Source of the DNA: Coprococcus comes ATCC 27758
Lineage (GTDB): Bacteria > Bacillota > Clostridia > Lachnospirales > Lachnospiraceae
DNA: 64,000 nucleotides
Reading direction: 5' to 3'
Assembly (NCBI RefSeq): GCF_025149785.1
Contig: NZ_CP102277.1
Coordinates: 1,302,001-1,366,000, forward strand
Within the stretch, counting starts at the first letter, position 1, and the number at the start of each line of letters is the position of its first letter. The notes beneath the pieces are model-generated. The model was given only the letters and a program-made list of their open reading frames with translations. It searched no databases and was not told the origin of the DNA. Of this stretch, positions 7,715 through 64,000 are shown piece by piece. The translations under genes were made by a program, and so were the position numbers.

Positions 7715-8902
7715 ATGGCTAACAATAACGAAAAGAAACTGAATGGTACGGTTATCGTCACTTACCGCTGCAATGCTCGTTGCTCCATGTGCAACCGTTA
7801 TAAGGCACCTTCCAAGCCGGAAGAAGAAATCAGCATTGAAACCATCAAGAAGCTGCCGAAGATGTACTTTACCAACATCACCGGTGGTGAGCCGTTCATC
7901 CGTACCGACCTGAAGGATATCGTGCGTGAACTGTACAAGAAGTCTGACCGTATCGTTATTTCCACGAACGGTTTCTTCACAGATCGTATCGTTGATTTGT
8001 GTAAGGAGTTCCCTCAAATCGGTATTCGTATCTCTATCGAGGGTCTGGAGCAGACCAACAATGAGATTCGTGGCCTGCAGAACGGCTACCAGCGTGGTTA
8101 CGGCACACTGAAGAAGCTGCGTGAAATGGGCATGAAGGATGTCGGTTTTGGTATGACCGTTCAGGACAAGAATGCTCCTGACCTGGTTCCGCTGTACAAA
8201 ATCTCCAACGAGATGGGCATGGAGTTCGCAACAGCATCTCTGCACAACAGCTTCTACTTTGTTGAGGCCAAGAACATTATCCATGACCGTCCGATGGTTG
8301 CTAAGAACTTCGAGAATCTGGTCAACGAACTGCTTCGCAGCAACAGCCCGAAGAAGTGGTTTCGTGCGTACTTTAACCACGGCCTGATCAACTACATCTA
8401 CGGTCAGAAGCGTCTGCTGCCTTGCGATATGAGCTTTGATACCTTCTTCATCGACCCGTATGGCGATGTCATGCCTTGCAACGGTACCAAGGACAAAGAG
8501 GTCATGGGCAACCTGAACAATCAAACCTGGGACGAGCTTTGGAACAGCCCTGAAGCAGAGAAGGTTCGTGCAAAGGTTCGCTGCTGTGACCGTGACTGCT
8601 GGATGATCGGTTCTGTCAGCCCGGCTATGCACAAGTACATCTGGAAGCCGGCTATCTGGGTTCTGGTTCACAAGTTCAAGGCTCTGTTCACCAAGCATCC
8701 GTACAGCATGTATGAGCTGAAAATCTGCCGCGATTATCGTGATGGCAAAGTTACTAAAGAGGATTTGGACAAGTGCAGCACCTGCGATATGAACTGTGTA
8801 ATCAATAACGGCCTGAGTGAAGCCTCCAAGGAGCAGCTGAAGCATAAGACCGGCGAGGAAATCGTGGATGCTGATATTGCACAGCAGATGGAGACGAAGT
8901 AA
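7715..8902 (+). CDS. Radical SAM / SPASM domain protein in polysaccharide locus
   Basis: A 395-residue radical SAM enzyme. CxxxCxxC sits at residues 19-26 (YRCNARCSMCNRY). It is followed by TGGEPFIRTDL and a C-terminal SPASM-type auxiliary cluster region (DPYGDVMPCNGT, then a CCDRDCW segment and a final CSTCDMNC). SPASM enzymes modify peptides or, in some families, sugars and other small molecules. No precursor peptide is apparent nearby, and the flanking genes are glycosyltransferases and an acyltransferase, so a sugar or lipid-linked substrate is an inference only. It shares the GC-rich composition of the upstream GT4 and shares one base with the next gene's start. Confidence 0.85.
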   Translation: MANNNEKKLNGTVIVTYRCNARCSMCNRYKAPSKPEEEISIETIKKLPKMYFTNITGGEPFIRTDLKDIVRELYKKSDRIVISTNGFFTDRIVDLCKEFPQIGIRISIEGLEQTNNEIRGLQNGYQRGYGTLKKLREMGMKDVGFGMTVQDKNAPDLVPLYKISNEMGMEFATASLHNSFYFVEAKNIIHDRPMVAKNFENLVNELLRSNSPKKWFRAYFNHGLINYIYGQKRLLPCDMSFDTFFIDPYGDVMPCNGTKDKEVMGNLNNQTWDELWNSPEAEKVRAKVRCCDRDCWMIGSVSPAMHKYIWKPAIWVLVHKFKALFTKHPYSMYELKICRDYRDGKVTKEDLDKCSTCDMNCVINNGLSEASKEQLKHKTGEEIVDADIAQQMETK

Positions 8903-9871
8903 TGGGTGGCCGATTGGATAGGACGACTACGAATTGCTGTAAAGGAATTGCGGCAATAATTATCATGTTGCACCACATATCTTTTCGGTTATCAAATTTA
9001 CCTGTGTATGTGAAACCGATTTGGTACATTGCTTTTCCGATAGTGGGATTCTTCTTCTTTATGTCAGGCTATGGCTTGACCTGTGGGTTACTGCAAAAGA
9101 GAAATTATCTTCAAGGTTTTCTGTCCAAAAGGCTTTTGAACATTATTGCTCCCTATGTGATAGTCGCAATCGTCTGGATAGGACTGGAAATTATCGGGGG
9201 GGGGGCAAACACCTACAAGAGCAATTGCTGAAGTATTTACAATTCGATACATTCAACCGCTTTGGTTTATATGGGTGATTATAGCCGTATACATTGTATT
9301 CTATGCAGTGTTTAACCATACAGAAATCAATGTAGGAGCATATTGGTTTGCGGTTATAACTATTGCTTATATCTTGATAAGTGCTTTTGTTAACCCGCGA
9401 GATGAAATGTATGCATCTATTATTGGAATGCCTCTCGGCATTTTGTGGGCGATGTATGAGAGAAAAATTGATTCTTATTTTGAAATCGGTTTTTTGAGGA
9501 AAGAAATTGTTGCAATTGTAGCTTTTGTAATTTTGTTTATCGGAAGACTCACATTAAGTGTGGTGGGTTTTGATAATCAATTGTTTCAGTCGGTTCTTCG
9601 GAATATTATCACGATAGCATTTATTGTTCCTCTAATTGAATTATTGAAAAAAGTGAAGATACAGAAAAGATTTCTGATTTGGTTAGGAACAATATCTTAT
9701 GAAATTTATATCATCCATCCGTTTATTCTTTATTTCTTTGAAAAGGAGACAACGGAAGGAAAACAAGTAGGTAACTTGGAAATTGTATTGTGGACAATTG
9801 GATTAACCCTACTTTTGTCAAGTGTGTTGCAGATTGTCCAGGATAATTTAGTTAGAAAAGTGAAATTATAA
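8902..9871 (+). pseudogene. Acyltransferase family 3 gene, frameshifted in a poly-G tract (probable phase-variable OFF state)
   Basis: Two adjacent open frames form one membrane O-acyltransferase (acyltransferase_3 / OafA-like). The first (8902-9231) carries the N-terminal CKGIAAIIIMLHHISF and later FFFMSGYGLT. The second, frame +2 relative numbering, resumes just after a run of ten G at 9196-9205 and runs to 9871 with WLGTISYEIYIIHPF, a typical C-terminal motif. With nine G the frames join as I-G-G-G-Q and give a 322-residue protein. The product would acylate (usually acetylate) sugars of the repeat unit at the membrane. As sequenced it is out of frame. A slippage-prone homopolymer rather than random decay is indicated because both halves are otherwise intact. 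Confidence 0.82.
9196..9205 (+). repeat. G10 homopolymer inside acyltransferase gene (candidate phase-variation tract)
   Basis: Ten consecutive G in a gene with otherwise low GC. Nine would restore the frame (ATC GGG GGG GGG CAA). Tracts of this length are prone to slipped-strand mispairing. Confidence 0.9.
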
Positions 9872-9889
9872 AAATGATAGGGGTCTAAA

Positions 9890-10780
9890 ATGAGCAATAT
9901 AACAGTTCTTACACCCGCCTACAATAGAGGAAAACTTCTGGAAAAACTATATGAATCCTTATGTGCTCAGGACTGTAAGGACTTTGAGTGGCTCATTGTA
10001 GATGATGGTAGTACGGATGATACAAGCGAACGTGTCGAGCAAATGAAACAGACGGCAGATTTTCCAATTTCTTATCATAAAAAAGAAAATGGCGGAAAGC
10101 ACACGGCTCTGAATTATGCATATCAGTTTATAAAGGCTCCGTTGACATTTATTGTTGACAGCGATGATTCTCTTACAGTAGATGCAATTTCTTGTGTCAA
10201 TGAGATTTATAAAAAGTACAAAAACGAGAGTGATCTTTGTGGCTTTAGCTTTTTGAGAGGAAAGCCGGATGGTGGATATCTAAGTACATCTGGTGTGCCA
10301 CAGGATGGGATGAAAGAGTCCTATGTTGAGTGCCGAATTAATAGAAATATTGGTGGAGATATGGCGGAAGTATGGTATACGCACTGTCTAAAAGAATATC
10401 TATTTCCTGAGTTTCAAGGGGAAAAGTTTCTAGGTGAGGATATCGTTTGGGTTAGAATGTCTGAAAAGTATAAAATGCGATTCTTTAATCGTGTAATTTA
10501 CATTTCAGATTATCTCGAAGATGGTCTGACTAATAACCGTAGAAAACACAATATAAAGTCCCCGAATGGATGCATAGCTAGAGCAGAGGCATTCTTGGAC
10601 TCGAATGCTTGCATGAAAATAAGAATCAAATCAATGCTGCAGTATCAAATATACGGAAAGTTCGCTGGAAGAAAAAGTGGTGAGCTTTTGAGTAATAGTA
10701 GTGACAAAATTTTATATTGTGCTCTTTTCCTTCCGAGTCAATTATTGTATGGAAAGTGGAAACGAGATATAAAAGAATAA
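9890..10780 (+). CDS. Glycosyltransferase family 2 protein
   Basis: A 296-residue GT-A fold enzyme. The N-terminal strand ITVLTPAYNRGKLLEKLYESL is followed by WLIVDDGSTDDT, GGKHTALNYAY and the DxD-type metal site FIVDSDDSLT. A downstream FLGEDIVWVRMSEKY contributes the usual ED base region. It transfers a sugar from a nucleotide donor to the growing lipid-linked unit at the cytoplasmic face. ATG 9890 lies 18 bases after the acyltransferase stop. AT-rich codon use from here on contrasts with the two GC-rich genes before the acyltransferase. Confidence 0.87.
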   Translation: MSNITVLTPAYNRGKLLEKLYESLCAQDCKDFEWLIVDDGSTDDTSERVEQMKQTADFPISYHKKENGGKHTALNYAYQFIKAPLTFIVDSDDSLTVDAISCVNEIYKKYKNESDLCGFSFLRGKPDGGYLSTSGVPQDGMKESYVECRINRNIGGDMAEVWYTHCLKEYLFPEFQGEKFLGEDIVWVRMSEKYKMRFFNRVIYISDYLEDGLTNNRRKHNIKSPNGCIARAEAFLDSNACMKIRIKSMLQYQIYGKFAGRKSGELLSNSSDKILYCALFLPSQLLYGKWKRDIKE

Positions 10781-10847
10781 TTATGTCATGCAACTGCTCT
10801 AGTTAAAGTGGGATTGAGGAAGATGTGGAGAGGACAAGGATTAGGGA

Positions 10848-38945: not shown

Positions 38946-39361
38946 CAGGATATGAGGATATCATTCATTTAGCGCATCATGTATCGGTCAGACATCCGCA
39001 GATGTCAAGGGAGGACAGAGCGGCGCAGTTTGCCCCGTTTGCAGCGCTGACCGGACATAAAGATGCAATCAGGGAGACCGAAAGACTGACCGAGCGGAAA
39101 CGCAGACTTAGTGAGGATTGCAGACAGATACTGGATCTGTATTTACGGGAAGTATGCCAGAGTCAGGAACCACGGGAAGTGGATTTTGAATATTTTGTAC
39201 CGGATCAGAAAAAGGAAGGTGGCTCCTATCAGAAAAAGTCCGGATGTATCCGGAGGATTGACACTTATCTGAATGAAATCGTATTACAGAGTGGAGACCG
39301 GATTCCGCTTGATGAAATCGTAGACATTGATGGAGTGATTGCCGCAGCTGACGAAGTGTGA
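38942..39361 (+). CDS. YolD-like protein
   Basis: A 139-residue protein with the YolD-like start: REDRAAQFAPFAALTGHKDA and a C-terminal IRRIDTYLNEIVLQSGDRIP. Such proteins are regular partners of UvrX/UmuC-like polymerases in Firmicutes and are thought to play a UmuD-like accessory part. It is coupled to the polymerase by an ATGA overlap, so it shares the LexA control. Confidence 0.85.
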   Translation: MTGYEDIIHLAHHVSVRHPQMSREDRAAQFAPFAALTGHKDAIRETERLTERKRRLSEDCRQILDLYLREVCQSQEPREVDFEYFVPDQKKEGGSYQKKSGCIRRIDTYLNEIVLQSGDRIPLDEIVDIDGVIAAADEV

Positions 39362-39443
39362 TAGAATAAATTTTATAATTTCATGGACAAATGCCCATAA
39401 ATTCAGAAAAGATACAGAAAACCAGGCAGGGAGAATGGAAAGA

Positions 39444-40481
39444 ATGAAACCAGTTTACGAAAGATTCATCGAAAATCCGGATTTTACGAAACCGGATTTT
39501 GTCGAATTGATAAAATGCGCAGAAGATCCGGAGGCAGTCCGGAGATTGAAAGAGGAAGCAGTCCGTATCCGGGAGATTTATTACGGGAAAAAGGTATTTA
39601 CCAGAGGGCTGATCGAATATACCAATTATTGTAAGAATGACTGCTATTATTGCGGAATCCGTAAGAGTAATACGAATGCAAAGCGCTACCGTCTGACAGA
39701 GGATGAGATCATGGCATGCTGTGAGAATGGGTATGAGCTTGGATTCCGGACGTTTGTGCTACAGGGCGGAGAAGATGCTTATTATACGGATGACCGGATG
39801 GTAGCGATTATTAAAAAAATCAAGGAGGCATATCCGGAATGTGCGCTGACGCTGTCGATTGGTGAGAAGTCTTATGAGAGTTATAAAAGATTCCGGGAAG
39901 CCGGAGCGGATCGTTACCTGCTTCGCCATGAAACGGCGAATGAGGAGCATTACCGGAAGCTACATCCGGAGAAAATGAGTCTCGCAGTCCGGAAGAATTG
40001 TCTGTATGATCTGAAGAAGCTTGGTTATCAGGTGGGGGCTGGCATGATGGTTGGTTCACCTTATCAGACGACAGAAGATCTGGCAGAAGACCTGGTATTC
40101 TTGAAAGAATTGCAGCCGGAGATGGTGGGAATCGGACCGTTTATCCCACATCATGATACGCAGTTTGCAAAAGAACCGGCAGGAAGTGTGGAGATGACAC
40201 TGTTTTTGCTCGCTGTGATCCGAATCCTGCTGCCGAAGGTACTTCTTCCGGCAACGACAGCACTTGGTACGATGGATCCGCTTGGAAGAGAGAAAGGGCT
40301 GCAGGCAGGAGCCAATGTCGTGATGCCGAACCTTTCTCCGGTGAAGAACCGGAAGCAGTATGAGCTTTATGACAACAAGATCTGTACCGGTGAAGAGGCA
40401 GCAGAATGTCGCGGATGTATGGGGAGACGAGTAGCAAGTGTCGGATATGAGCTGGTGACAGAGCGTGGGGATGCAGTGTAG
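39444..40481 (+). CDS. hydE: [FeFe] hydrogenase H-cluster radical SAM maturase HydE
   Basis: A 345-residue radical SAM protein. The cluster motif CxxxCxxC is in EYTNYCKNDCYYCGIRKSN. RTFVLQGGEDAYYTD, YLLRHETANEEHYRKLHP and IGPFIPHHDTQFAKE are HydE signatures. A C-terminal CRGCMGRR may hold a second cluster. HydE takes part in building the CO/CN/dithiomethylamine diiron site with HydF and HydG, which are not in this window. ATG 39444 is favoured over 39435 because GGGAG (39429-39433) would lie too close to the latter. It is a single gene with its own short leader. Relevance: its host makes an H-cluster, while the operon at 54.7 kb carries a TM1266 protein of the same system. Confidence 0.92.
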   Translation: MKPVYERFIENPDFTKPDFVELIKCAEDPEAVRRLKEEAVRIREIYYGKKVFTRGLIEYTNYCKNDCYYCGIRKSNTNAKRYRLTEDEIMACCENGYELGFRTFVLQGGEDAYYTDDRMVAIIKKIKEAYPECALTLSIGEKSYESYKRFREAGADRYLLRHETANEEHYRKLHPEKMSLAVRKNCLYDLKKLGYQVGAGMMVGSPYQTTEDLAEDLVFLKELQPEMVGIGPFIPHHDTQFAKEPAGSVEMTLFLLAVIRILLPKVLLPATTALGTMDPLGREKGLQAGANVVMPNLSPVKNRKQYELYDNKICTGEEAAECRGCMGRRVASVGYELVTERGDAV

Positions 40482-54697: not shown

Positions 54698-55453
54698 ATG
54701 TTAAAGATTGCAATTTATGGAAAGGGCGGTATTGGAAAGTCTACGATTACGTCCAATCTGGCGGCAGCATTTGCGGCGATGGGAAAGAAAGTAATCCAGA
54801 TTGGATGTGATCCGAAGGCAGATTCTACGATCAATCTGCTTGGCGGCGAGCCGCTCAGACCGGTGATGAATTATATGAGAGAAGAGGATGAAGAACCGGA
54901 GGAGCTTTCAGATATTGCAAAAGAAGGCTATGGTGGTGTGCTCTGCATTGAAACAGGTGGACCGACACCGGGACTTGGATGCGCGGGGCGCGGGATTATT
55001 GCCACATTCCAGCTGTTAGAAGATTTGCAGTTATTTGAAACATATAAGCCGGATGTTGTACTTTATGACGTTCTTGGTGATGTGGTATGCGGTGGATTTG
55101 CAGCACCGATCCGGGAAGGGTACGCCGAAAAGGTTCTGATCGTAACTTCTGGAGAAAAGATGGCACTTTATGCAGCAAATAATATTTCAAGTGCGGTGAG
55201 GAATTTTGAGGACAGAAGCTATGCCAGAGTATTCGGTATTGTACTGAACCACAGGAATGTGGAAAATGAGACGGAAAAAGTACAGGCATTTTCCGAAAAA
55301 AGCGGGATCCCGATCGTCGGGGAAATCCCGAGAAGTGATGAGATCATCCGCTATGAGGATCAGGGAATGACGGTGATCGAAGGGGACAAAGATTCCGCGA
55401 TCAGTAAGAGATTTTTTGATCTGGCAGAGTTATTACTGAAGAGTGAGGAATAG
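54698..55453 (+). CDS. NifH/BchL/CfbC-superfamily iron protein, copy 1 (nitrogenase-like reductase)
   Basis: A 251-residue P-loop ATPase. Walker A is GKGGIGKST (residues 8-16), with GCDPKADST following. The two Cys that bind the shared 4Fe-4S cluster are present at residues 95 ([12 protein letters not shown]) and 131 ([11 protein letters not shown]), as is the Arg that follows the first. A homodimer would pass electrons with ATP hydrolysis to the NifD/K-like partner encoded next. It is shorter than true nitrogenase NifH (about 290), and no nif assembly genes are near, so dinitrogen fixation is not implied. First gene after the regulated leader; six bases before the NifD-like gene. Confidence 0.88.
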
Positions 55454-55458
55454 AAGGT

Positions 55459-56739
55459 ATGGCAAAAGAAGCATATTATTGTACCGTAAAAGAATTAAAT
55501 AAACTGGGAAGAGATGCGATTCCGGCACAGCTCCGGTCGAATACACACCTGATCTACAGCTCACCGGCAACGCTTGCATTTAACTCACCGGGAGCAGAAG
55601 GATTCGGAGTAAAAAGAGCGGGACTTGCTGTACCGGATTCGATCATGCTGATCGTGGCACCGGGCTGCTGTGGACGAAATACTTCGCTTATCAGTTCCAT
55701 GAGGGAATATGATAACCGTTTTTTCTATCTGATGATGGACGAGACCGATATCGTAACGGGACGTCATTTGAAAAAGATTCCGAAGGCAGTAGAAGAAATC
55801 TGCAATTGCTGTGAAAAGAGACCGTCCGTTGTGATGATCTGTATTACCTGTGTAGATGCTCTTCTTGGGACGGACATGGAGCGTGTGTGCAGAAAAGCGG
55901 AAGAAAGAGCCGGACTTCCGGTTCGACCATGCTACATGTACGCGCTGACAAGAGAAGGAAGAAAGCCGCCGATGGTGCATGTACGTCAGTCTTTATATTC
56001 CCTTCTGGAGCCAAAGAAGAAAAAAGGAAATGTGGTGAACCTGCTTGGATTTTTCTCGCCGCTGATCGATGAGTGTGAGCTGTATGATCTTTTGCACAGC
56101 GCAGGAGTTAAGACCATCCATGAAATCTCCAGATGCAAGGACTATGAGGAATATCAGACCATGTCTGAGGCAAATTTTAATCTGGTACTTCACCCGGAAG
56201 CCAGATTTGCGGCAGAGGATTTTCATAACCGTCTGCAGATTCCGTTTATTGAACTCAGGAGACTCTACCAGACAGACAAGATCGCCAGCCAGTATCAGGC
56301 ATTTGGGAAAGTGCTTGGGGTGACATTTTCTGATGAAGTTTATCGTGAAAAAGCGGAAGAAACCGTGGCAAAATTCAAAGAGAAACGGCCGGATGCAAGC
56401 TTTGCGATCGGGGAATGCATGAACGGAGATCCATTTGAAATGGCACTTGCGATGATCAAATATGGATTTAAGGTGCCAGAAATCTATGGAACACTGACAG
56501 CAGAGAACTTTATTTACCTAAACCAGTTATCCCAGCTCAGCCCGGAGACGAAGGTATTTTCCAATATGGAACCGACCATGCTGTACTACGATCCGGAAAA
56601 GAGCGGCGTGAATATGACCATTGGAAAGGATGCGGGATACTATCATCCGGATCAGCCGAATGTGATCTGGAATCAGGACAGACAGCCTTATGGTTATGCA
56701 GGTGTGACACGGTTGTTTGAAACCCTTTTGGAGGTGTAG
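55459..56739 (+). CDS. Nitrogenase component 1-like oxidoreductase subunit (NifD-like)
   Basis: A 426-residue protein of the nitrogenase component 1 superfamily. Metal-cluster-type cysteines lie in IVAPGCCGRNTSL (70, 71) and MICITCVDALLGTD (128, 131), where NifD-type proteins bind an Fe-S cluster. Further cysteines (115, 117, 118) cluster before the second. I see no convincing equivalents of the FeMo-cofactor ligands (Cys275/His442), although GYYHPDQPN near the end has a His. It is likely a catalytic or scaffold subunit working with the NifK-like partner (next gene, 1 base apart). The substrate is unknown; group IV-VI-type nitrogenase-like enzymes include CfbD and methylthio-alkane reductases. 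Confidence 0.82.
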   Translation: MAKEAYYCTVKELNKLGRDAIPAQLRSNTHLIYSSPATLAFNSPGAEGFGVKRAGLAVPDSIMLIVAPGCCGRNTSLISSMREYDNRFFYLMMDETDIVTGRHLKKIPKAVEEICNCCEKRPSVVMICITCVDALLGTDMERVCRKAEERAGLPVRPCYMYALTREGRKPPMVHVRQSLYSLLEPKKKKGNVVNLLGFFSPLIDECELYDLLHSAGVKTIHEISRCKDYEEYQTMSEANFNLVLHPEARFAAEDFHNRLQIPFIELRRLYQTDKIASQYQAFGKVLGVTFSDEVYREKAEETVAKFKEKRPDASFAIGECMNGDPFEMALAMIKYGFKVPEIYGTLTAENFIYLNQLSQLSPETKVFSNMEPTMLYYDPEKSGVNMTIGKDAGYYHPDQPNVIWNQDRQPYGYAGVTRLFETLLEV

Positions 56740-56740
56740 T

Positions 56741-57781
56741 ATGAGAGGACTTAGAAAATATCTGACACCATTTGCACCGGATCAGTCTGGCGCAGTGTCT
56801 GTGTTATATGAACTTGGCGGAATCATCGTCATCTGCGACGCGGGAGGATGCACAGGAAATGTCTGCGGTTTTGATGAGCCGAGATGGTTTGAACGGAAAA
56901 GTGCAGTATTCAGCGCAGGACTTCGTGATATGGATGCAATCCTTGGAAGAGATGACCGTCTGGTCGCAAAGCTGGTCGATGCAGCTGATAAGATTGATGC
57001 GAATTTTGCGGCGATTGTCGGCACTCCGGTTCCGGCTGTGATCGGAACGGATTACCAGGCACTGAAAAGAATGTGTGAAAAAAAGACCGACCTTCCGATT
57101 CTTGCCATTGATACCGACGGAATGGAGCTTTATGATAAAGGGGAAGAAAAAGCGTATCTTGCATTATTTACTGCATTTGCAAAGGAAAAATATGAAGTAT
57201 GCAAAGAAAAAGTCGGTATCCTTGGAATGACGCCACAGGATGTAAGCGATCTGAAAGCAGCAGATAAAGTAAGAGAGGAACTGAAAAAAGAAGGAAAAGA
57301 AGCCATTTGCTATGGAATGGGCGATGGGCTTGAGGCAGTAGAAAGGGCATCGGAAGTTGGCAAAAATATTGTTGTATCTGTGGCAGCACTGGAAGTAGCC
57401 AAATATTTGGAAAAGACCTTTGGTACGCCGTATGAGATCGGTTATCCGGCAGCAGGTGAGTTGGTTCCGAATCTGGACTATCAGGGAAAGAAAATCCTTG
57501 TGGTACACCAGCAGGTGATGGCGGAAGCAATCCGGCAGGAAATTCTTAAAAGAGAGAATTCGGCAGAGGTGCAGACAGCAACCTGGTTTATGAGGAAAAA
57601 AGAGCTTGCCTGTCCGCAGGATGTGTCGTTGCGTGAGGAAGATGATTATATCGATCTTGTGAAAAATGGTGGATTTGATATCATTTTTGCAGATGCATGT
57701 ATGGAAAAAATGGTTCCGGATTTTCAGGGAATCTTCGTAAATACAAGACATTTTGCAGTGTCAGGGAGACTGTGTGAATAG
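56741..57781 (+). CDS. Nitrogenase component 1-like oxidoreductase subunit (NifK/NifE-like)
   Basis: A 346-residue partner protein. CDAGGCTGNVCGFDEPRW near the start supplies Cys32, 37 and 42, a plausible cluster site; the later VGTPVPAVIGTDYQ is the position where NifK homologues usually have a further Cys, here missing. The repeating Rossmann-like blocks (KVGILGMTPQDVSDLKAADK, then KILVVHQQVMAEAIRQEIL) and the final DIIFADACMEKMVPDF, FVNTRHFAVSGR are typical of the superfamily's C-terminal domains. ATG 56741 follows GGAGGTG (56730-56736) inside the last codons of the previous gene. The protein is short for the family, and hypF starts on the next base. Confidence 0.78.
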   Translation: MRGLRKYLTPFAPDQSGAVSVLYELGGIIVICDAGGCTGNVCGFDEPRWFERKSAVFSAGLRDMDAILGRDDRLVAKLVDAADKIDANFAAIVGTPVPAVIGTDYQALKRMCEKKTDLPILAIDTDGMELYDKGEEKAYLALFTAFAKEKYEVCKEKVGILGMTPQDVSDLKAADKVREELKKEGKEAICYGMGDGLEAVERASEVGKNIVVSVAALEVAKYLEKTFGTPYEIGYPAAGELVPNLDYQGKKILVVHQQVMAEAIRQEILKRENSAEVQTATWFMRKKELACPQDVSLREEDDYIDLVKNGGFDIIFADACMEKMVPDFQGIFVNTRHFAVSGRLCE

Positions 57782-60112
57782 ATGAAAAATGAAGTGACAA
57801 AACAGATCCGCGTCTATGGGATCGTGCAAGGCGTAGGATTTCGTCCGACTGTGAGCAGGCATGCAGCTACGCATCAGATCCGGGGCAGCGTGTCCAATAA
57901 AGGTCCGTATGTGGAAATCTTTGCGCAGGGACCGGAAGAGGCAGTGGATGGATTTATCTCAGATATTGAGAATAAGCCGCCGAAGCGGGCAGCAATTTTG
58001 AAAATGAATATTGAGCCGGTAGAAGAAGCAGAAGACTTTACGGAGTTTGCGATCATTGAAAGTGAAAAGACGAAAGGTGAGATTTTTGTCTCACCGGATA
58101 TTGCAATTTGTGATGAATGCAAGGAAGAAATGTTTGATCCGAAGAACCGTAGATATCTGCATCCATTTATCAACTGTACCTGCTGTGGACCAAGACTTAC
58201 GATCCTGGATGCCCTTCCGTATGACCGGGAGCGCACCAGCATGAAAGAATTTCCGATGTGTCCGGATTGCGCAAAAGAATATTATGATCCGGCAACCCGG
58301 AGATACGATGCACAGCCAGTCTGTTGTAACGAGTGTGGTCCGGAGGTCTACCTGATCGGCAGAGAAGAACGCGGAAGAGATGCGATCATTTACACCAGAC
58401 GGACCATTGCAGAAGGCGGAATTGTGGCGATTAAGGGGATTGGAGGTTTCCACCTGTGCTGCGATGCGACTAATGAAGAGGCGGTGAAGCGCCTCAGAGA
58501 ACTGAAAAAACGTCCGGCGAAACCATTTGCAGTTATGGCAAAAGATCTGGAATCTGTGAAAAGAGAATGCCTGATCAGTGAAGAACAGGAAAAAATTCTG
58601 ACCGGACATCAAAAACCAATCCTGCTTTTGGACAAAAAAGAAGATGGTGAAGAAACACTTTGCGAAAGTATTGCACCTGGTAATCCAAAGGTTGGAGTAA
58701 TGTTGCCGTATGCACCGGTACAGCTTCTGCTCTTTACCTATGATGATGGAATCCGGATGCCGTCTTTTTTGGTTATGACCAGTGGAAATACATCTGGTGC
58801 ACCGATCTGCAGGGAGGACAAAGAAGCGATTCAGGAGCTTTCCCGTCTGTGCGACTGTATGCTTTCCCACAACCGGAAAATCCGGATCCGTGCCGATGAT
58901 TCAGTGATGGATTTTTATAAAAATGAGCCATATATGATCCGCAGATCCAGAGGCTATGCGCCACTTCCGACCATGGTTCAGATGCCGTGGAAAGGGCAGG
59001 TACTTGCTACTGGAGGAGAACTGAAAAATACATTCTGCATCGGTGTGGACGGCAGATTTTACCCATCCCCTTATGTGGGAGATCTGGAAGATCTGCGCAC
59101 CGTGGAAGCTTTAAAAGAAACGATCGGCAGAATGGAAACACTTCTGGAGGTAGAACCAAAGGTTGTGGCATGCGATCTGCATCCGAAATACAATGCGACA
59201 GTTGTTGCGGAAGAACTTGGACTTCCGGTTCTGAAGATACAGCACCATTTTGCACATATTCTGTCCTGTATGGCAGAAAATGACTGCGAAGATCCGGTGA
59301 TCGGCGTTTCCTTTGACGGAACCGGCTATGGAACGGATGGGACCATCTGGGGTGGAGAAATTCTTCGTTGTGATTACAATGGATTTGAAAGACTTGGCAG
59401 CATTAAGCCATTCTGGCAGGTAGGTGGAGATCTTTCTGCAAAAGAAGGCTGGCGAATTGCCGGGTCTCTTCTCTATGAAGAATTGCAGGATAAAGAAAAA
59501 ACGGTCGAATGGATGAAGAAACTGGAGCTTTGCACCGAACCGGAGGCAAAAGTACTGGTGACAATGACCGGACGACACCTGAATGCTGTTCGATCTACCA
59601 GTGCCGGCCGTCTCTTTGATGGAGTCAGTGCTATCCTCGGAATCCGGAAAAAATCCACTTTCGAGGGAGAAGCATCTACGGCATTAGAGTTCGCAGCAGA
59701 AGCTTACGAAAAAACAATGCAGCATCCATACAAACCCCTCATGCTTAAGCCATTTACAGAAACGGCAGAAGACCGCCTGATTCTAAATACCGGCGAATTA
59801 GTCAAAAACCTCGCCAAAAAACGTCTCGCCGGGGAAGATACCGGACAACTTGCATACGAGTTCCACCAGGAACTTGCAAGACAGATCATATCCGCAGCCC
59901 TCACAGCAAGTCATCAGACCGGAATCCGGAAAGTTGCCCTAAGCGGCGGAGTTTTCCAGAACCGCTTACTACTACGGCTGGTAGAAGAAGGTCTGGTTAA
60001 GCAAGGTCTCATCACCCTGCACCATCACCTCATTCCACCAAATGACGGAGGATTGTCACTTGGTCAGGCAGCCTACGCAATGGCATATTTACAGAAGCAT
60101 GAGATAAAATAA
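57782..60112 (+). CDS. hypF: Carbamoyltransferase HypF
   Basis: A 776-residue full-length HypF. In order: acylphosphatase domain (VYGIVQGVGFRPTVSRHA); two zinc-finger blocks (CDECKEEMFDPKNRRYLHP with CTCCGPR, and CPDCAKEYYDPATRRYDAQ with CNECGP); YrdC-like domain (IVAIKGIGGFHLCCDATNEE); Kae1-like domain with HHFAHILSCMAEN, VSFDGTGYGTDGTIWGGE and LSGGVFQNRLL. With HypE it turns carbamoyl phosphate into the cyanide ligands of the [NiFe] iron centre. It starts directly after the NifK-like stop, so translation is coupled, and no hydrogenase gene is adjacent. Both features are unusual. Confidence 0.95.
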   Translation: MKNEVTKQIRVYGIVQGVGFRPTVSRHAATHQIRGSVSNKGPYVEIFAQGPEEAVDGFISDIENKPPKRAAILKMNIEPVEEAEDFTEFAIIESEKTKGEIFVSPDIAICDECKEEMFDPKNRRYLHPFINCTCCGPRLTILDALPYDRERTSMKEFPMCPDCAKEYYDPATRRYDAQPVCCNECGPEVYLIGREERGRDAIIYTRRTIAEGGIVAIKGIGGFHLCCDATNEEAVKRLRELKKRPAKPFAVMAKDLESVKRECLISEEQEKILTGHQKPILLLDKKEDGEETLCESIAPGNPKVGVMLPYAPVQLLLFTYDDGIRMPSFLVMTSGNTSGAPICREDKEAIQELSRLCDCMLSHNRKIRIRADDSVMDFYKNEPYMIRRSRGYAPLPTMVQMPWKGQVLATGGELKNTFCIGVDGRFYPSPYVGDLEDLRTVEALKETIGRMETLLEVEPKVVACDLHPKYNATVVAEELGLPVLKIQHHFAHILSCMAENDCEDPVIGVSFDGTGYGTDGTIWGGEILRCDYNGFERLGSIKPFWQVGGDLSAKEGWRIAGSLLYEELQDKEKTVEWMKKLELCTEPEAKVLVTMTGRHLNAVRSTSAGRLFDGVSAILGIRKKSTFEGEASTALEFAAEAYEKTMQHPYKPLMLKPFTETAEDRLILNTGELVKNLAKKRLAGEDTGQLAYEFHQELARQIISAALTASHQTGIRKVALSGGVFQNRLLLRLVEEGLVKQGLITLHHHLIPPNDGGLSLGQAAYAMAYLQKHEIK

Positions 60113-60206
60113 AACCAGACATAAAAATATTTTAAACAGAGTTAATCTAAAAACTATTACAAATTACAATAAAAGAGGAAAAGGACCACCAGGAACAAAC
60201 AAATCA

Positions 60207-60240
60207 GGAATTGACAACAAGGTACTGCCTTGTCAATTCC
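60207..60240 (+). terminator. Hairpin in the hypF-hypC gap
   Basis: GGAATTGACAA (60207-60217) pairs perfectly with TTGTCAATTCC (60230-60240), followed by CCCTTTG. It may be a weak terminator or processing site. Confidence 0.5.
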
Positions 60241-60265
60241 CCCTTTGTCAACACGTTAAATTTTA

Positions 60266-60494
60266 GGAAGCGCCAGCAGGGAGAGAAAACAATTGGGACC
60301 GGCTGCATTTGCAGGAGCCCGAGCGTTCTCTTGGAAACTGCAGTGTTGCGTTATTTACAGAAATCCATCTGTTTGAGCGAAGCGAGTTATGGATTTCTGT
60401 AAATGCTCTTAGCAACACGAAGCCTTCCTAGAGAACACCGGACTCCTGCAAATGCAGCCGGTCCCAATTGTTTTCTCTCCTTGCGTCCCTTCCC
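60266..60494 (+). repeat. 229-bp imperfect palindrome (MITE-like or giant RNA hairpin) between hypF and hypC
   Basis: Two arms of about 105 bases are inverted copies: GGGAGAGAAAACAATTGG on the left matches CCAATTGTTTTCTCTCC on the right. Further inward CCGGCTGCATTTGCAGGAG, CGTTCTCT, GTGTTGC and ATTTACAGAAATCCAT all have counterparts, around a 20-base loop containing GAGCGAAGCGAG (60377-60388 region). No gene lies in it. hypC starts 23 bases after the right arm. I see no target duplication with certainty. Confidence 0.8.
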
Positions 60495-60516
60495 AAAAAA
60501 AGGAGGAATTACCCAC

Positions 60517-60726
60517 ATGTGTGTTGGATTATCAGCAAAAGTTGTAAAAATCAGTAACGGAACCGCCGTCGTTGACGCAGGCGGTGCAAAAAGAGAGGTT
60601 TCATCCAAGCTCTTGGAGAATCTGGAACCAGGTGATTACGTCATGGTCCACGCCGGAGTTGCGATCGCAAAGATCACCGATGAAGATGAAAGCGAGACCG
60701 ATCAGCTTATGGAGGAACTGCTGTAA
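60517..60726 (+). CDS. hypC: HypC/HybG/HupF family hydrogenase formation chaperone
   Basis: A 69-residue chaperone. The required N-terminal MCVGLSAKV has the Cys2 that binds the Fe(CN)2CO unit; GGAKREVSSKLLENLEPGDY and VMVHAGVAIAKIT follow. ATG 60517 is set by AGGAGG (60501-60506) and the invariant Met-Cys; the longer upstream frame lies in the palindrome. HypC works with HypD. It shares one base with hypD. Confidence 0.95.
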   Translation: MCVGLSAKVVKISNGTAVVDAGGAKREVSSKLLENLEPGDYVMVHAGVAIAKITDEDESETDQLMEELL

Positions 60727-61778
60727 TGGAAGAACAAAAGAAACGAACAGCCAGAGAGATCATAGAAAATTATGACGGACCGGCAGTGCGGATCATGGAA
60801 GTATGCGGAACCCATACCCATGAAATTTTCCGTCTGGGGATCCGAAAACTTTTACCAAAGCAGGTAGAACTGATCTCAGGACCGGGATGCCCGGTCTGCG
60901 TAACACCGGTCAGCTTTATTGATGAAGCAATTTATCTGGCGTTGGAGAAGCAGGTGACGATCTGTACATTTGGTGATCTGGTCCGCGTACCGGGAAGTCA
61001 GATGAGCCTTGCCGGAGCAAGAGAAAAAGGAGCAAAGATCCATATCGTTTATTCACCGGCAGATGCGGAAAAATATGCGAAAGATCATCCGGAAGAACAG
61101 GTGACATTTTTATCCGTTGGGTTTGAGACAACGACACCTGCAGGATGCCTTTCGGTTAAACAGGCAAAGGAAGATGAAATTTCCAATTATTCTCTTCTGG
61201 TTGCCAATAAGACGATGCCGGGAGCTTACGAGGCACTCAAAGGCAGTGCGGATGTATTTTTATATCCGGGACACGTCAATGCAATCACGGGGACCGAACT
61301 TTGTGAGGAACTGGTAAAAGAAGGAGTCAGCGGTGTGGTAGCAGGATTTACGGCAAAAGAACTGCTCACAGCACTTGCGGTCGCACTGGTACGCTTCCAG
61401 GAAGGAAAGCCGTTCTTCGTAAACTGCTATCCGAGAGTTGTCACCAGAGAAGGAAGCCGTGAGGCACAGAGGCTGGTGAATGAACTGATGGAAGGATGCG
61501 ACAGCGAGTGGAGAGGTCTTGGAATCATTCCGGGATCCGGTATGCAGCTGAGAGAAGAATGGGAAGCATACGATGCCAGAAAGAAATACAATATGCCAAA
61601 GATCGAAGGAAAAGCAAATCCGGCATGCCGCTGCGGAGATGTACTGCAGGGAAAATGCAAACCGTCCGACTGCAAGGTGTTTGGCAAGGTATGTACACCG
61701 CAGCACCCGGTAGGAGCCTGCATGGTATCCGGCGAGGGCGCATGCTCGGCTTACTATATGTATGATACCAGGGGATAA
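60726..61778 (+). CDS. hypD: Hydrogenase formation protein HypD
   Basis: A 350-residue HypD. MEVCGTHTHEIFR, ISGPGCPVCVTP and SVGFETTTPAG hold the active Cys and thiol network. The C-terminal CRCGDVLQGKCKPSDCKVFG and CTPQHPVGACMVSGEGAC carry the 4Fe-4S ligands. It assembles and transfers the Fe(CN)2CO group. All key residues are present, so it should be functional. The stop is followed by a hairpin and a tandem repeat region before hypE. Confidence 0.96.
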   Translation: MEEQKKRTAREIIENYDGPAVRIMEVCGTHTHEIFRLGIRKLLPKQVELISGPGCPVCVTPVSFIDEAIYLALEKQVTICTFGDLVRVPGSQMSLAGAREKGAKIHIVYSPADAEKYAKDHPEEQVTFLSVGFETTTPAGCLSVKQAKEDEISNYSLLVANKTMPGAYEALKGSADVFLYPGHVNAITGTELCEELVKEGVSGVVAGFTAKELLTALAVALVRFQEGKPFFVNCYPRVVTREGSREAQRLVNELMEGCDSEWRGLGIIPGSGMQLREEWEAYDARKKYNMPKIEGKANPACRCGDVLQGKCKPSDCKVFGKVCTPQHPVGACMVSGEGACSAYYMYDTRG

Positions 61779-61780
61779 AA

Positions 61781-61827
61781 GTCAGAAGTCTGACGCAAGC
61801 TTGCTTGCAGGAAGACTTCTGACCTTT
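61781..61827 (+). terminator. Hairpin after hypD
   Basis: GTCAGAAGTCT (61781-61791) pairs with AGACTTCTGAC (61813-61823), followed by CTTTATC. Probably a partial terminator; it lies at the front of the tandem repeat. Confidence 0.6.
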
Positions 61828-62123
61828 ATCTCCGCCAAAACATGAGTAAGTAGCCATTTCGCGAAGAAAAATGAGCGGATTACGAATGTTTTGAGGATTG
61901 TGAGAGCACGTAAGTGCGGAACAATCCGGTATCAGGGAAACGAAGGAATGGAACACCGACGCAAGCTTGCTTGCAGGAAGACTTCTGACCTTTATCCCCG
62001 CCAAAACATGAGTAAGTAGCCATTTTATGAAGAAAAATGAGCGGATTACGAATGTTTTGAGGATTGTGAGAGCACGAAAGTGCGGAACAATCCGGTATCA
62101 GGGAAACGAAGGAACGGAACACC
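61792..62123 (+). repeat. Two 166-bp tandem repeats between hypD and hypE
   Basis: Copy 1 (61792-61957) and copy 2 (61958-62123) both start GACGCAAGCTTGCTTGCAGG and end GGAACACC. They differ at only about ten positions. A short third echo (GGAACAATCCGGTATCA) follows at 62123-62140. No gene is seen; hypE starts at 62178. Confidence 0.9.
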
Positions 62124-62177
62124 GGAACAATCCGGTATCATATATACGGAAACGATTAGGAGAGAAGGAAGTTAAAA

Positions 62178-63197
62178 ATGGAAAATAAAATGGACAACCA
62201 GACAGTAACTATGGCACACGGAGCCGGCGGAAAGCAGACTTCAGAGTTGATCGATAAAGTATTTGCAGCACATTTTGCCAATCCGGACCTGACTGCGGAT
62301 GATGCGGCAGTTCTTACACCACCAGTCGGAAAGATGGCAGTATCTACGGATGGATTTATTGTATCTCCGGCATTCTTCCCAGGAGGAAATATCGGAAAGC
62401 TTTCCATCTGCGGAACAGTTAATGACCTTGCATGTATGGGAGCAAAACCACTTTATCTGACTTGTGCATTTGTAATTGAAGAAGGATTTCCGATGGAAAA
62501 ACTGGAAGAGATTGCAGCAGCAATGGAGAAAACGGCAAAAGAAGCCGGTGTCCGTATTGTATCCGGAGATACCAAGGTAGCAGGAAAGGGACAGGTAGAC
62601 GGTGTATTTATCACAACAACCGGAATGGGACAGATCGAGGACGGCGTAAAAGTCGGAGGAGAACTGGCACAGCCGGGAGACGCGATCATTGTGACCGGAG
62701 ATGTGGGACGCCATGGTTGTACGATCCTTCTTGCAAGAGAAGACTTCGGAATCGAAGCGGATGTGACCAGTGACTGTGCACCACTATGGCATACTGTAGA
62801 AGAAGTGATAAATGCAACACATGATCTGCATGTCATCCGTGATGCGACAAGAGGTGGAGTTGGAACAGTACTTTATGAGATTGCGGGACAAAGTAATGTT
62901 GGAATCCGTCTGAATGCTGAAAAAGTTCCGGTTGCACCGGAAGTGAAGGGAGTCTGCGGAATGCTTGGACTGGAGCCACTTTACCTTGCATGTGAAGGAA
63001 GAATGGTCATTATGGCACCAAAAGCAGAGGCAGAAAAGATTGTAGAAGTACTGCACAAATGTCCGTATTCACAGAATGCGGCAATTATCGGAGAAGTAAC
63101 TGCAGAGCAGCCGGGGAAAGTAGTCATGACTACAGAAATCGGAACGCAGGCACTTCTTCCACAGCCGGGCGGAGAATTGCTGCCACGTATCTGCTAA
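62178..63197 (+). CDS. hypE: Hydrogenase expression/formation protein HypE
   Basis: A 339-residue AIR synthase-related protein. TVTMAHGAGGKQTSELI opens, followed by AVSTDGFIVSPAFFPGGNIG, MGAKPLYL and VTGDVGRHGCTILLAREDFG (19 of these form the ATP-binding block). It ends in LLPRIC, the invariant C-terminal Cys that HypF carbamoylates and that becomes the thiocyanate donor. AAGGA (62165-62169) precedes ATG 62178. Confidence 0.96.
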   Translation: MENKMDNQTVTMAHGAGGKQTSELIDKVFAAHFANPDLTADDAAVLTPPVGKMAVSTDGFIVSPAFFPGGNIGKLSICGTVNDLACMGAKPLYLTCAFVIEEGFPMEKLEEIAAAMEKTAKEAGVRIVSGDTKVAGKGQVDGVFITTTGMGQIEDGVKVGGELAQPGDAIIVTGDVGRHGCTILLAREDFGIEADVTSDCAPLWHTVEEVINATHDLHVIRDATRGGVGTVLYEIAGQSNVGIRLNAEKVPVAPEVKGVCGMLGLEPLYLACEGRMVIMAPKAEAEKIVEVLHKCPYSQNAAIIGEVTAEQPGKVVMTTEIGTQALLPQPGGELLPRIC

Positions 63198-63248
63198 ACA
63201 ATCTGAAATGCGGAATCGGTGACATTTCAAAAAGAAAGGAGACTTTTC

Positions 63249-63521
63249 ATGGACACCAGAGTAGCAGTCATTTCAATTATTGTGGAGAATCCTGCCGCGA
63301 TTGAGGAACTGAACCATTACCTGCATGAAGCAGGAGAGTATATCATTGGAAGAATGGGAATTCCGTACCGGGAGAAGGGAATTAATATCATCAGCATCGC
63401 CATTGATGCACCGCAAGATATGATCAGTGCTTTGTCAGGGAAGATCGGGCGTCTGAATGGGGTATCCACAAAAACGGCGTACTCGAACGTCATTACGAAA
63501 GCGGAGGAAAAAGCGGAATGA
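63249..63521 (+). CDS. TM1266 family ACT-like regulator (iron-only hydrogenase system)
   Basis: A 90-residue ACT-like domain protein. [39 protein letters not shown] and [20 protein letters not shown] match the TM1266 family, normally found beside HydE/F/G genes for the [FeFe] hydrogenase. ATG 63249 follows AAGGAG (63236-63241). Here it sits between hypE and a NifH-like gene, an unusual mix. Its stop overlaps the NifH-like start by 4 bases. Confidence 0.85.
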
Positions 63522-64000
63522 AAAAGATAGCAGTGTACGGAAAAGGCGGGATCGGAAAATCCACAACTGTATCCAATCTTGCGGTGGCACTTGCCGAAAA
63601 AGGATACAAGGTCATGCAGATCGGCTGTGATCCGAAGGCGGATTCGACCATCCAGCTCCGACACGGAAAGGAGATTCCAACCGTACTGGAAATGTTCCAA
63701 CAGAAGAAACAGAATCTAAAACTGGAAGATATGGTTACGGTTGGCTATGCAGGTGTGGTCTGTGTAGAAGCAGGTGGACCGACACCGGGACTTGGATGTG
63801 CAGGACGCGGGATTATCACCGCCCTTGAGAAGCTGGAAGAAACCGGTGCTTATGAGACCTACCAGCCGGATATCGTGTTATATGATGTACTTGGTGATGT
63901 AGTCTGCGGTGGCTTTTCCATGCCAATGCGAAAAGGCTATGCGGATCAGGTATTCATCATCACATCCGGTGAAAATATGGCGATCCATGCCGGGGCCAAT
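63518..64000 (+). CDS. NifH/BchL-superfamily iron protein, copy 2 (3' truncated by the window)
   Basis: The first 161 residues of a second NifH-like protein. [32 protein letters not shown], the cluster Cys in [12 protein letters not shown] and in [16 protein letters not shown] are present. It differs from the copy at 54698 at many positions, so it is a paralogue, not a recent duplicate. It presumably serves a second component-1-like pair encoded beyond the window. Coupled by ATGA to the TM1266 gene. Confidence 0.88.

Follow-up and report, generated by a model that had tools for sequence, protein, structure and literature searches.

The window examined here, 64,000 nucleotides of the complete genome of Coprococcus comes ATCC 27758 (positions 1302001-1366000 of one 3.37-Mb contig), ends within a gene island that continues into the adjoining part of the contig. 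The island measures approximately 12 kb, lies on the plus strand only and has the order H1-D1-K1-hypF-hypC-hypD-hypE-TM1266-H2-D2-K2, where H, D and K stand for genes resembling those of the nitrogenase reductase and of the nitrogenase alpha and beta subunits. The carbon monoxide (CO) and cyanide (CN) ligands of [FeFe] hydrogenase are generally accepted to come from HydG. We propose, at a probability of roughly 80% and from sequence comparison, that the island is a putative substitute for HydG in the assembly of the H-cluster of that enzyme, because the block is conserved, [NiFe] hydrogenase is mostly lacking from the genomes that carry it, HydF is always and HydG almost never present in them, and HydE, HydF, TM1266 and, once, HydA are found beside or inside the island in divergent genomes.

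The presence of HydF and HydG was compared in 80 genome handles, of which 45 carry the island (6 genomes of the family, 27 of the 50 genomes reached by the D1 scan described below and 12 genomes of the class) and 35 served as controls. Two pairs of island handles (G153 and G442, G125 and G536) have identical coordinates and are duplicates, leaving 43 distinct genomes. The controls, which were fixed before the HydG result and are not a random sample, comprise 27 genomes of the family, several of which carry other genes like those of nitrogenase, and 8 genomes of the class that were chosen because they have HypD. HydF exceeded its cut-off in all 45 island handles and in 17 of the 35 controls, some of the negative controls possibly being misses since at most 20 candidates per genome were scored. 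HydG exceeded the TIGR03955 cut-off in 2 of the 45 island handles and in 17 of the 35 controls, and was thus missing from 41 of the 43 distinct island genomes, that of C. comes included; among the controls it accompanied HydF in 16 of 17 cases, and 17 had neither gene. The exchange of HydG for the island among HydF-positive genomes has a Fisher p of 1.7e-11 after removal of the duplicates.

It might be supposed that an atypical radical S-adenosylmethionine (SAM) tyrosine lyase replaces HydG in these genomes, and that the island aids the hydrogenase otherwise, e.g. by reductive activation or repair; the sections of Di Leonardo 2022 (PMC9431212) drawn on here do propose that the acetogens have HydG-like radical-SAM proteins of an atypical kind, about 450 residues long. 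However, in 15 of the 45 island handles nothing resembling HydG or ThiH scores above 100 bits, and the 190-bit match of the HydG model in the C. comes genome is ThiH, adjoined by ThiF-, ThiG- and ThiE-like frames (named by eye); the weaker matches represent HydE or, as checked for the C. comes genome, ThiH. Such a lyase would also leave HypCDEF, whose known product is iron-bound CN, without a role. ThiH or an atypical HydG was rejected as the general answer, and we hold the lyase explanation to be quite improbable.

The surroundings of the island were compared in the 80 scan loci and in 12 loci fetched later (L200-L211), several of the latter because of nearby HydE, HydF or HydA, so that only the 80 are unselected for linkage. 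Clustering of the neighbouring genes gave a radical-SAM protein and a GTPase, whose copies in L104 are HydE (578 bits) and HydF (575 bits) by NCBIfam. HydE and/or HydF lie within the fetched piece in 21 of the 80 scan loci (9 on the island strand, 12 on the opposite one), with many pieces ending before such a neighbour could show, and in 10 of the 12 later loci; both genes occur together in 17 of the 92. They are placed between D1 and K1 in L104, L124 and L130, while L200 carries on one strand the whole series HydA-H1-D1-K1-hypF-hypC-hypD-hypE-TM1266-D2-K2-HydF-HydE, lacking H2, with a HydA of group A6 that scores 776 bits against a cut-off of 765. L095 has an extra gene of the aspartate ammonia-lyase family, described as a partner in hyd operons in the part of PMC11736057 consulted. 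The arrangement also varies by lineage: in Coriobacteria and Atopobiaceae loci (L085, L090, L110, L112, L129 and others) HydE, HydF and TM1266 stand upstream of the island, the first two of them in the reverse orientation to it, whereas in Clostridia loci they lie on the same strand.

The C. comes genome itself encodes HydF away from the island (TIGR03918, 565 bits; cut-off 326), two HydA proteins with the H-cluster ligand motifs TSCCP, MPC and MAC..GC, and, about 14 kb upstream of the island in the window, HydE. The sequence-only reading, an earlier note made from the letters of the window without database searches, had recognized TM1266 and overlooked this HydE; the absence of HydG was not visible there. 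HydE, HydF, TM1266 and HydA of the HydEFG pathway are all found in this genome, and island-linked in others, the difference being the absence of the tyrosine-cleaving source of CO and CN.

The only control with HydF and without HydG, G117, has HydE-H2-D2-K2-ABC-HydF-TM1266 in one run (L046 3531-12622), its ATP-binding cassette (ABC) transporter between K2 and HydF being of the BtuCD/FecCD type and its D2 and K2 grouping with the respective clades in a tree of 72 rows. This run is possibly a third variant of the system, and it hints that D2K2 is the pair closest to HydE and HydF.

Conservation of the island was followed at several depths. A D1-like match (E <= 1e-10) is present in 17 of 120 family genomes, and an ortholog-like D1 (E <1e-150, identity at least 55%) in 6 of them, C. 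comes included. Of the 492 related stretches that a profile of six D1 proteins gave in named genomes, the best 80 were kept, more distant members lying outside the sample; by record title, these best 80 of 492 include Coprococcus comes, Blautia, Eubacterium ramulus, Roseburia faecis, Clostridium ljungdahlii, C. carboxidivorans and many Coriobacteria and Atopobiaceae. Of the 61 loci that reach 7.6 kb past the D1 start, 59 keep one and the same order of all seven genes from H1 to hypE. The two exceptions are L062, where no hypC was detected, and L127, which begins inside or just before D1. The 19 shorter pieces left out of this count agree with that order as far as they extend. The conserved order excludes a chance neighbourhood, and an accident of a single genome was likewise rejected. 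The sequence-only reading had joined the Hyp and nitrogenase-like genes into one unit and looked to other genomes for the linkage; this part stood, whereas its suggestion of an undescribed metallocofactor or reductase probably does not hold, the likely product being the known H-cluster made without HydG.

Of the genes after hypE, D2 is found somewhere in the piece in 52, K2 in 46, H2 in 31 and TM1266 in 31 of the 56 loci reaching 10.5 kb, where a missed gene may reflect weak similarity or a cut end. Because 22 of these 56 loci have D2 with no H2, H1 may serve both D-K pairs. Two irregular loci were seen besides: L060 (Blautia sp. MSJ-19) has an insert of about 2.9 kb between D1 and K1 with three unidentified open reading frames (ORFs), perhaps a mobile element, and L039 of genome G071 has a single frame of 812 residues at the D1/K1 place (8353-10791), perhaps a D1-K1 fusion; H2-D2-K2 of G071 is on a separate contig (L040).

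The hyp genes could alternatively serve a [NiFe] hydrogenase encoded elsewhere, the nitrogenase-like genes being chance neighbours or helpers of that enzyme. The island shares with HypABCDEF maturation the proteins HypC, HypD, HypE and HypF, all over their NCBIfam cut-offs for hydrogenase maturation and with their cysteines kept: the C-terminal Cys339 of HypE is shared by 97% or more of 79 rows, and the cysteines of HypD (82 rows) and HypC (only 22 rows) are preserved. It differs in that the hyp genes are joined to nitrogenase-like ones and that the client is mostly missing. The complete C. comes genome has no match to PF00374, the [NiFe] large subunit, and none to HypA, both in keeping with the sequence-only reading, and the large subunit, for which that reading had also turned to other genomes, is lacking in 42 and present in 8 of the 50 scan genomes, for which no completeness is stated. 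In 393 class genomes, each at least 90% complete, HypD exceeded its cut-off in 71, the [NiFe] large subunit in 60 and D1 (E <1e-170) in 13; HypD without a [NiFe] large subunit occurs in 12, all of them with D1. The thirteenth D1 genome, G511, has a [NiFe] hydrogenase with a second HypD beside its gene, and in all, 7 of the 10 genomes with both island and [NiFe] hydrogenase carry two HypD, the second one a few kb from the [NiFe] gene by contig coordinates. Together with the gene order kept in nearly all loci, these counts already contradict the explanation for most genomes; it was rejected as a general answer, is to be considered very improbable, and [NiFe] hydrogenase is mostly not the island's client.

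A third alternative is that an undescribed Fe-CN/CO metallocofactor acts inside D1K1 or D2K2 as an enzyme in its own right, HydG being absent for other reasons. The tree of 72 rows resolves D1, K1, D2 and K2 into four separate groups (support 100/99, 100/100, 100/100 and 98/95), apart from NifD, NifE and NifK rows labelled from gene order, and we know of no function for any of the four. Their conserved residues would also fit an enzyme: D1 keeps Cys70, Cys71, Cys128, Cys131 and Cys158, and K1 Cys45, Cys50 and Asp22 (numbering of the frame from 56717). In nitrogenase numbering, used also for the iron-molybdenum cofactor (FeMo-co) ligands Cys275 and His442, D1 has cysteines at alpha Cys88 and Cys154 and none at Cys62; in both K1 and K2 beta Cys95 is retained, beta Cys153 has no cysteine counterpart and a conserved Asp stands one column off beta Cys70. 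Because of this pattern the D-K pair likely holds a putative [4Fe-4S] cluster by Cys and perhaps Asp; a non-Cys cluster ligand was also suggested by Dos Santos 2012 (PMC3464626), as far as the part used here goes. The adjacency of HydE, HydF, TM1266 and, in one case, HydA, and the near-perfect exchange with HydG among HydF-positive genomes, stand against an independent enzyme, which we regard as unlikely.

The island proteins were compared with the known nitrogenase-like systems. With the NifEN scaffold and NifH they share the fold: AlphaFold models of two proteins, the window D1 (predicted local distance difference test score, pLDDT, of 85) and the D2 of C. comes in L057 (pLDDT 87), match NifDK, NifEN and dark-operative protochlorophyllide oxidoreductase (DPOR) chains, profile matches in the PDB are mainly NifD and NifE, and NifE is the best NCBIfam match of D1 (66 bits) and K1 (45 bits), the two proteins so compared, both far under its cut-off of 505. 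H1 has the NifH fold, and its P-loop, Cys95 and Cys131 are conserved in an alignment of 93 rows. Unlike in nitrogenase NifHDK, neither equivalog scores nor FeMo-co ligands are present: the Cys275 column is Leu in 8 of 8 D1 rows and Cys in 1 of 8 D2 rows (L058), and the His442 column is a gap in all 16, in an alignment together with two Nif-like sets from the family, which were labelled by their gene order. Scores also fall below the cut-offs for CfbCD, the F430 reductive cyclase (H1 302 against 402, K1 25 against 268), and for DPOR and chlorophyllide oxidoreductase (BchLNB, BchXYZ; H1 212 against 345 for BchL, D1 24 against 490 for BchB), and a true nitrogenase, CfbCD or DPOR was rejected on these grounds. 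Methylthio-alkane reductase differs by its cysteine at the alpha Cys275 position, shared by the one D2 row only, and is approached by just a weak sequence match of D2 to 9d9u (E 5e-5). The nearest relatives of D1, D2 and K1 among the 72 tree rows are ABC-transporter-linked nitrogenase-like genes of Firmicutes, a group recognized by gene sizes and order rather than by a model scan; their pieces (L042-L044) hold no complete hyp genes, a 118-residue frame in L043 resembling part of HypF.

With regard to mechanism, HydG takes both CO and CN from tyrosine, and Hyp proteins produce iron-bound CN from carbamoyl phosphate. From these chemistries and that of NifH and NifEN we infer a division of labour in which cyanide on iron would come from the Hyp proteins, and CO or a scaffold from the nitrogenase-like complexes. 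In such a scheme HypF and HypE would convert carbamoyl phosphate into a protein-bound thiocyanate, from which HypC-HypD would place cyanide on iron; H1-D1-K1 and H2-D2-K2 would use ATP and low-potential electrons to generate CO, e.g. from CO2, and/or would carry the growing Fe(CN)(CO)n synthon in the manner of the NifEN scaffold, with H1 perhaps serving both pairs where H2 is absent. HydE would then make the two-iron precursor and HydF complete it and deliver it to HydA, both as in the standard route, with TM1266 as an accessory or regulatory part. That all of this amounts to a second, tyrosine-free route to the H-cluster, with cyanide from carbamoyl phosphate by Hyp, CO from CO2 and holding of the synthon by the nitrogenase-like proteins, and finishing by HydE and HydF, is given slightly better than even odds. 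In the portions available to us, PMC9571451 reports that NifH-type proteins alone can reduce CO2 to CO and that NifH works with NifEN in cofactor assembly, and PMC2762031 that carbamoyl phosphate had no effect in HydE/HydF/HydG extracts and did not bind the maturases, as is to be expected where no HypF-like protein is present.

Several observations weigh against HydG substitution. In [NiFe] maturation the Hyp proteins yield Fe(CN)2CO, whereas the H-cluster calls for a single CN and a larger number of CO on each iron; unless CO also came from elsewhere, the numbers of ligands would not match. Of 56 island genomes, 23 have HypA over its cut-off. No [NiFe] hydrogenase accompanies it in 17 of them, and the simple view that HypA disappears along with [NiFe] did not hold. 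C. ragsdalei (G156), C. ljungdahlii (G159) and C. drakei (G163) have a [NiFe] large subunit and the island HypD as their sole HypD, which also speaks for the [NiFe] explanation; in these three, a single set of Hyp proteins may work for both types of hydrogenase. Island and HydG coexist in C. thailandense (G147) and in C. drakei, control G021 has HydG with no HydF over cut-off, and G117 has D2K2 with no hyp genes within its 20-kb piece, hypD not having been searched in that genome. The sections of PMC9431212 used here assign HydG by motif to C. autoethanogenum, whose genome is outside this sample, and suggest the atypical HydG-like proteins for the other acetogens.

HydA, furthermore, occurs without any maturase found and so is no proof of maturation by itself, and the loss of HydG need not imply its replacement, a point that favours the independent enzyme. 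Among the 17 controls with neither HydF nor HydG, HydA was examined in 8 and has intact ligand motifs in six (G008, G017, G019, G022, G050 and G105; the subunits are those of L219, L220, L222, L223, L224, L225 and L226), G003 having a partial motif set and G059 a lost ligand. A related observation is that HydA-like proteins in L192, L193, L195, L196 and L199 have TSCSPGW in place of TSCCPGW and have thereby lost a cluster ligand; by sequence they look like complexes without an H-cluster, presumably those named HylABC.

The genes named in the sequence-only reading are all where it had put them, and the family matches from H1 to H2 agree with its assignments (Table 1), including the junction at which the K1 stop codon (TAG, 57779-57781) is followed on the very next base by the hypF start (ATG, 57782). 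Its last gene opens a second H-D-K trio, with H2 complete at L009 11518-12285 (PF00142, 312 bits in the genome search) and followed beyond the window by D2 (L009 12261-13619) and K2 (L009 13616-14809).

Table 1. Genes of the island within the window, and HydE upstream of it.
Feature	Position	Strand	Evidence
HydE, radical-SAM H-cluster maturase	39339..40481	+	TIGR03956 588 bits (cut-off 255); same window, outside island
H1, NifH-like ATP-dependent reductase	54698..55453	+	PF00142 300 bits; P-loop, Cys95/Cys131 kept
D1, nitrogenase alpha-like subunit	55459..56739	+	PF00148 100 bits
K1, nitrogenase beta-like subunit	56741..57781 (likely start)	+	PF00148 56 bits; open frame from 56717
hypF, carbamoyltransferase	57782..60112	+	TIGR00143 786 bits (cut-off 466)
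hypC	60517..60726 (probable start)	+	TIGR00074 63 bits (cut-off 48); open frame from 60403
hypD	60726..61778	+	TIGR00075 384 bits (cut-off 193)
hypE	62178..63197	+	TIGR02124 429 bits (cut-off 252); C-terminal Pro-Arg-Ile-Cys
TM1266-family protein, iron-only hydrogenase system	63249..63521 (inferred start)	+	TIGR03959 114 bits (cut-off 61); open frame from 63219
H2, second NifH-like gene, truncated by window end	63518..64000	+	PF00142 234 bits (partial)

Of the starts given in Table 1, that of K1 is likely the later one as judged from conservation, and that of hypC is probably 60517 because one arm of a 61-nt inverted repeat (60261-60321 and 60439-60499, 85% complementary) in the hypF-hypC gap falls inside the extended frame; the hypC family match begins at residue 39 of that frame, with Met-Cys. 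This gap, counted from the later start, and the hypD-hypE gap are each about 400 bases long, and the latter contains a 166-nt unit in two tandem copies that are 95% alike (61785-62116), with a 27-nt partial copy (62114-62140, 85%). A promoter scan gave the chance level (19 against 18.2) and terminator-like sites were slightly above it (16 against 11.9). After K2 come a prepilin-peptidase-like frame, transposase-like frames and an ABC transporter, all named by eye, the first with no NCBIfam match at E 1e-20. In agreement with the sequence-only reading, no hydrogenase genes or hypAB were recognized by eye in the ORFs of about 15 kb past K2, HypB not having been searched by model.

The association of Hyp with nitrogenase-like genes is old, and the function in replacing HydG appears to be new. 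Dos Santos 2012 (PMC3464626), in the part considered, describes NifHEN-like genes that are present in Coprococcus catus and Dorea longicatena as two copies close to each other and that in C. catus and other Firmicutes lie beside hydrogenase maturation genes, and suggests that they may help to assemble an active-site metallocluster. These copies are very likely the same island, although C. catus is outside the genomes examined here; the kind of hydrogenase and HydG are not named in that part, nor is a distribution test given. Independent data in favour of the proposal come from PMC9431212, by whose criteria 5 of 8 acetogenic Clostridium have no HydG; 5 of the 8, overlapping only in part with these, have HypCDEF and no HypAB, and both findings are left unexplained in the sections used. 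The main text of a transposon study of C. autoethanogenum (PMC9004356) does not contain the maturation terms looked for, and among open-licence papers in PubMed Central (PMC) none was found that joins the absence of HydG with Hyp and nitrogenase-like genes.

If the proposal is true, the island would answer both of these acetogen puzzles, the missing HydG and HypCDEF without HypAB, would provide the first function for an orphan group of nitrogenase-like proteins, and would merge the machinery of three metallocofactor families, those of [NiFe] hydrogenase, [FeFe] hydrogenase and nitrogenase. Many Lachnospiraceae and Coriobacteria of the gut would use this route, as would industrial acetogens, Clostridium ljungdahlii being one, and the proposal thereby predicts the mode of hydrogenase maturation of many gut bacteria and of some industrial gas fermenters.

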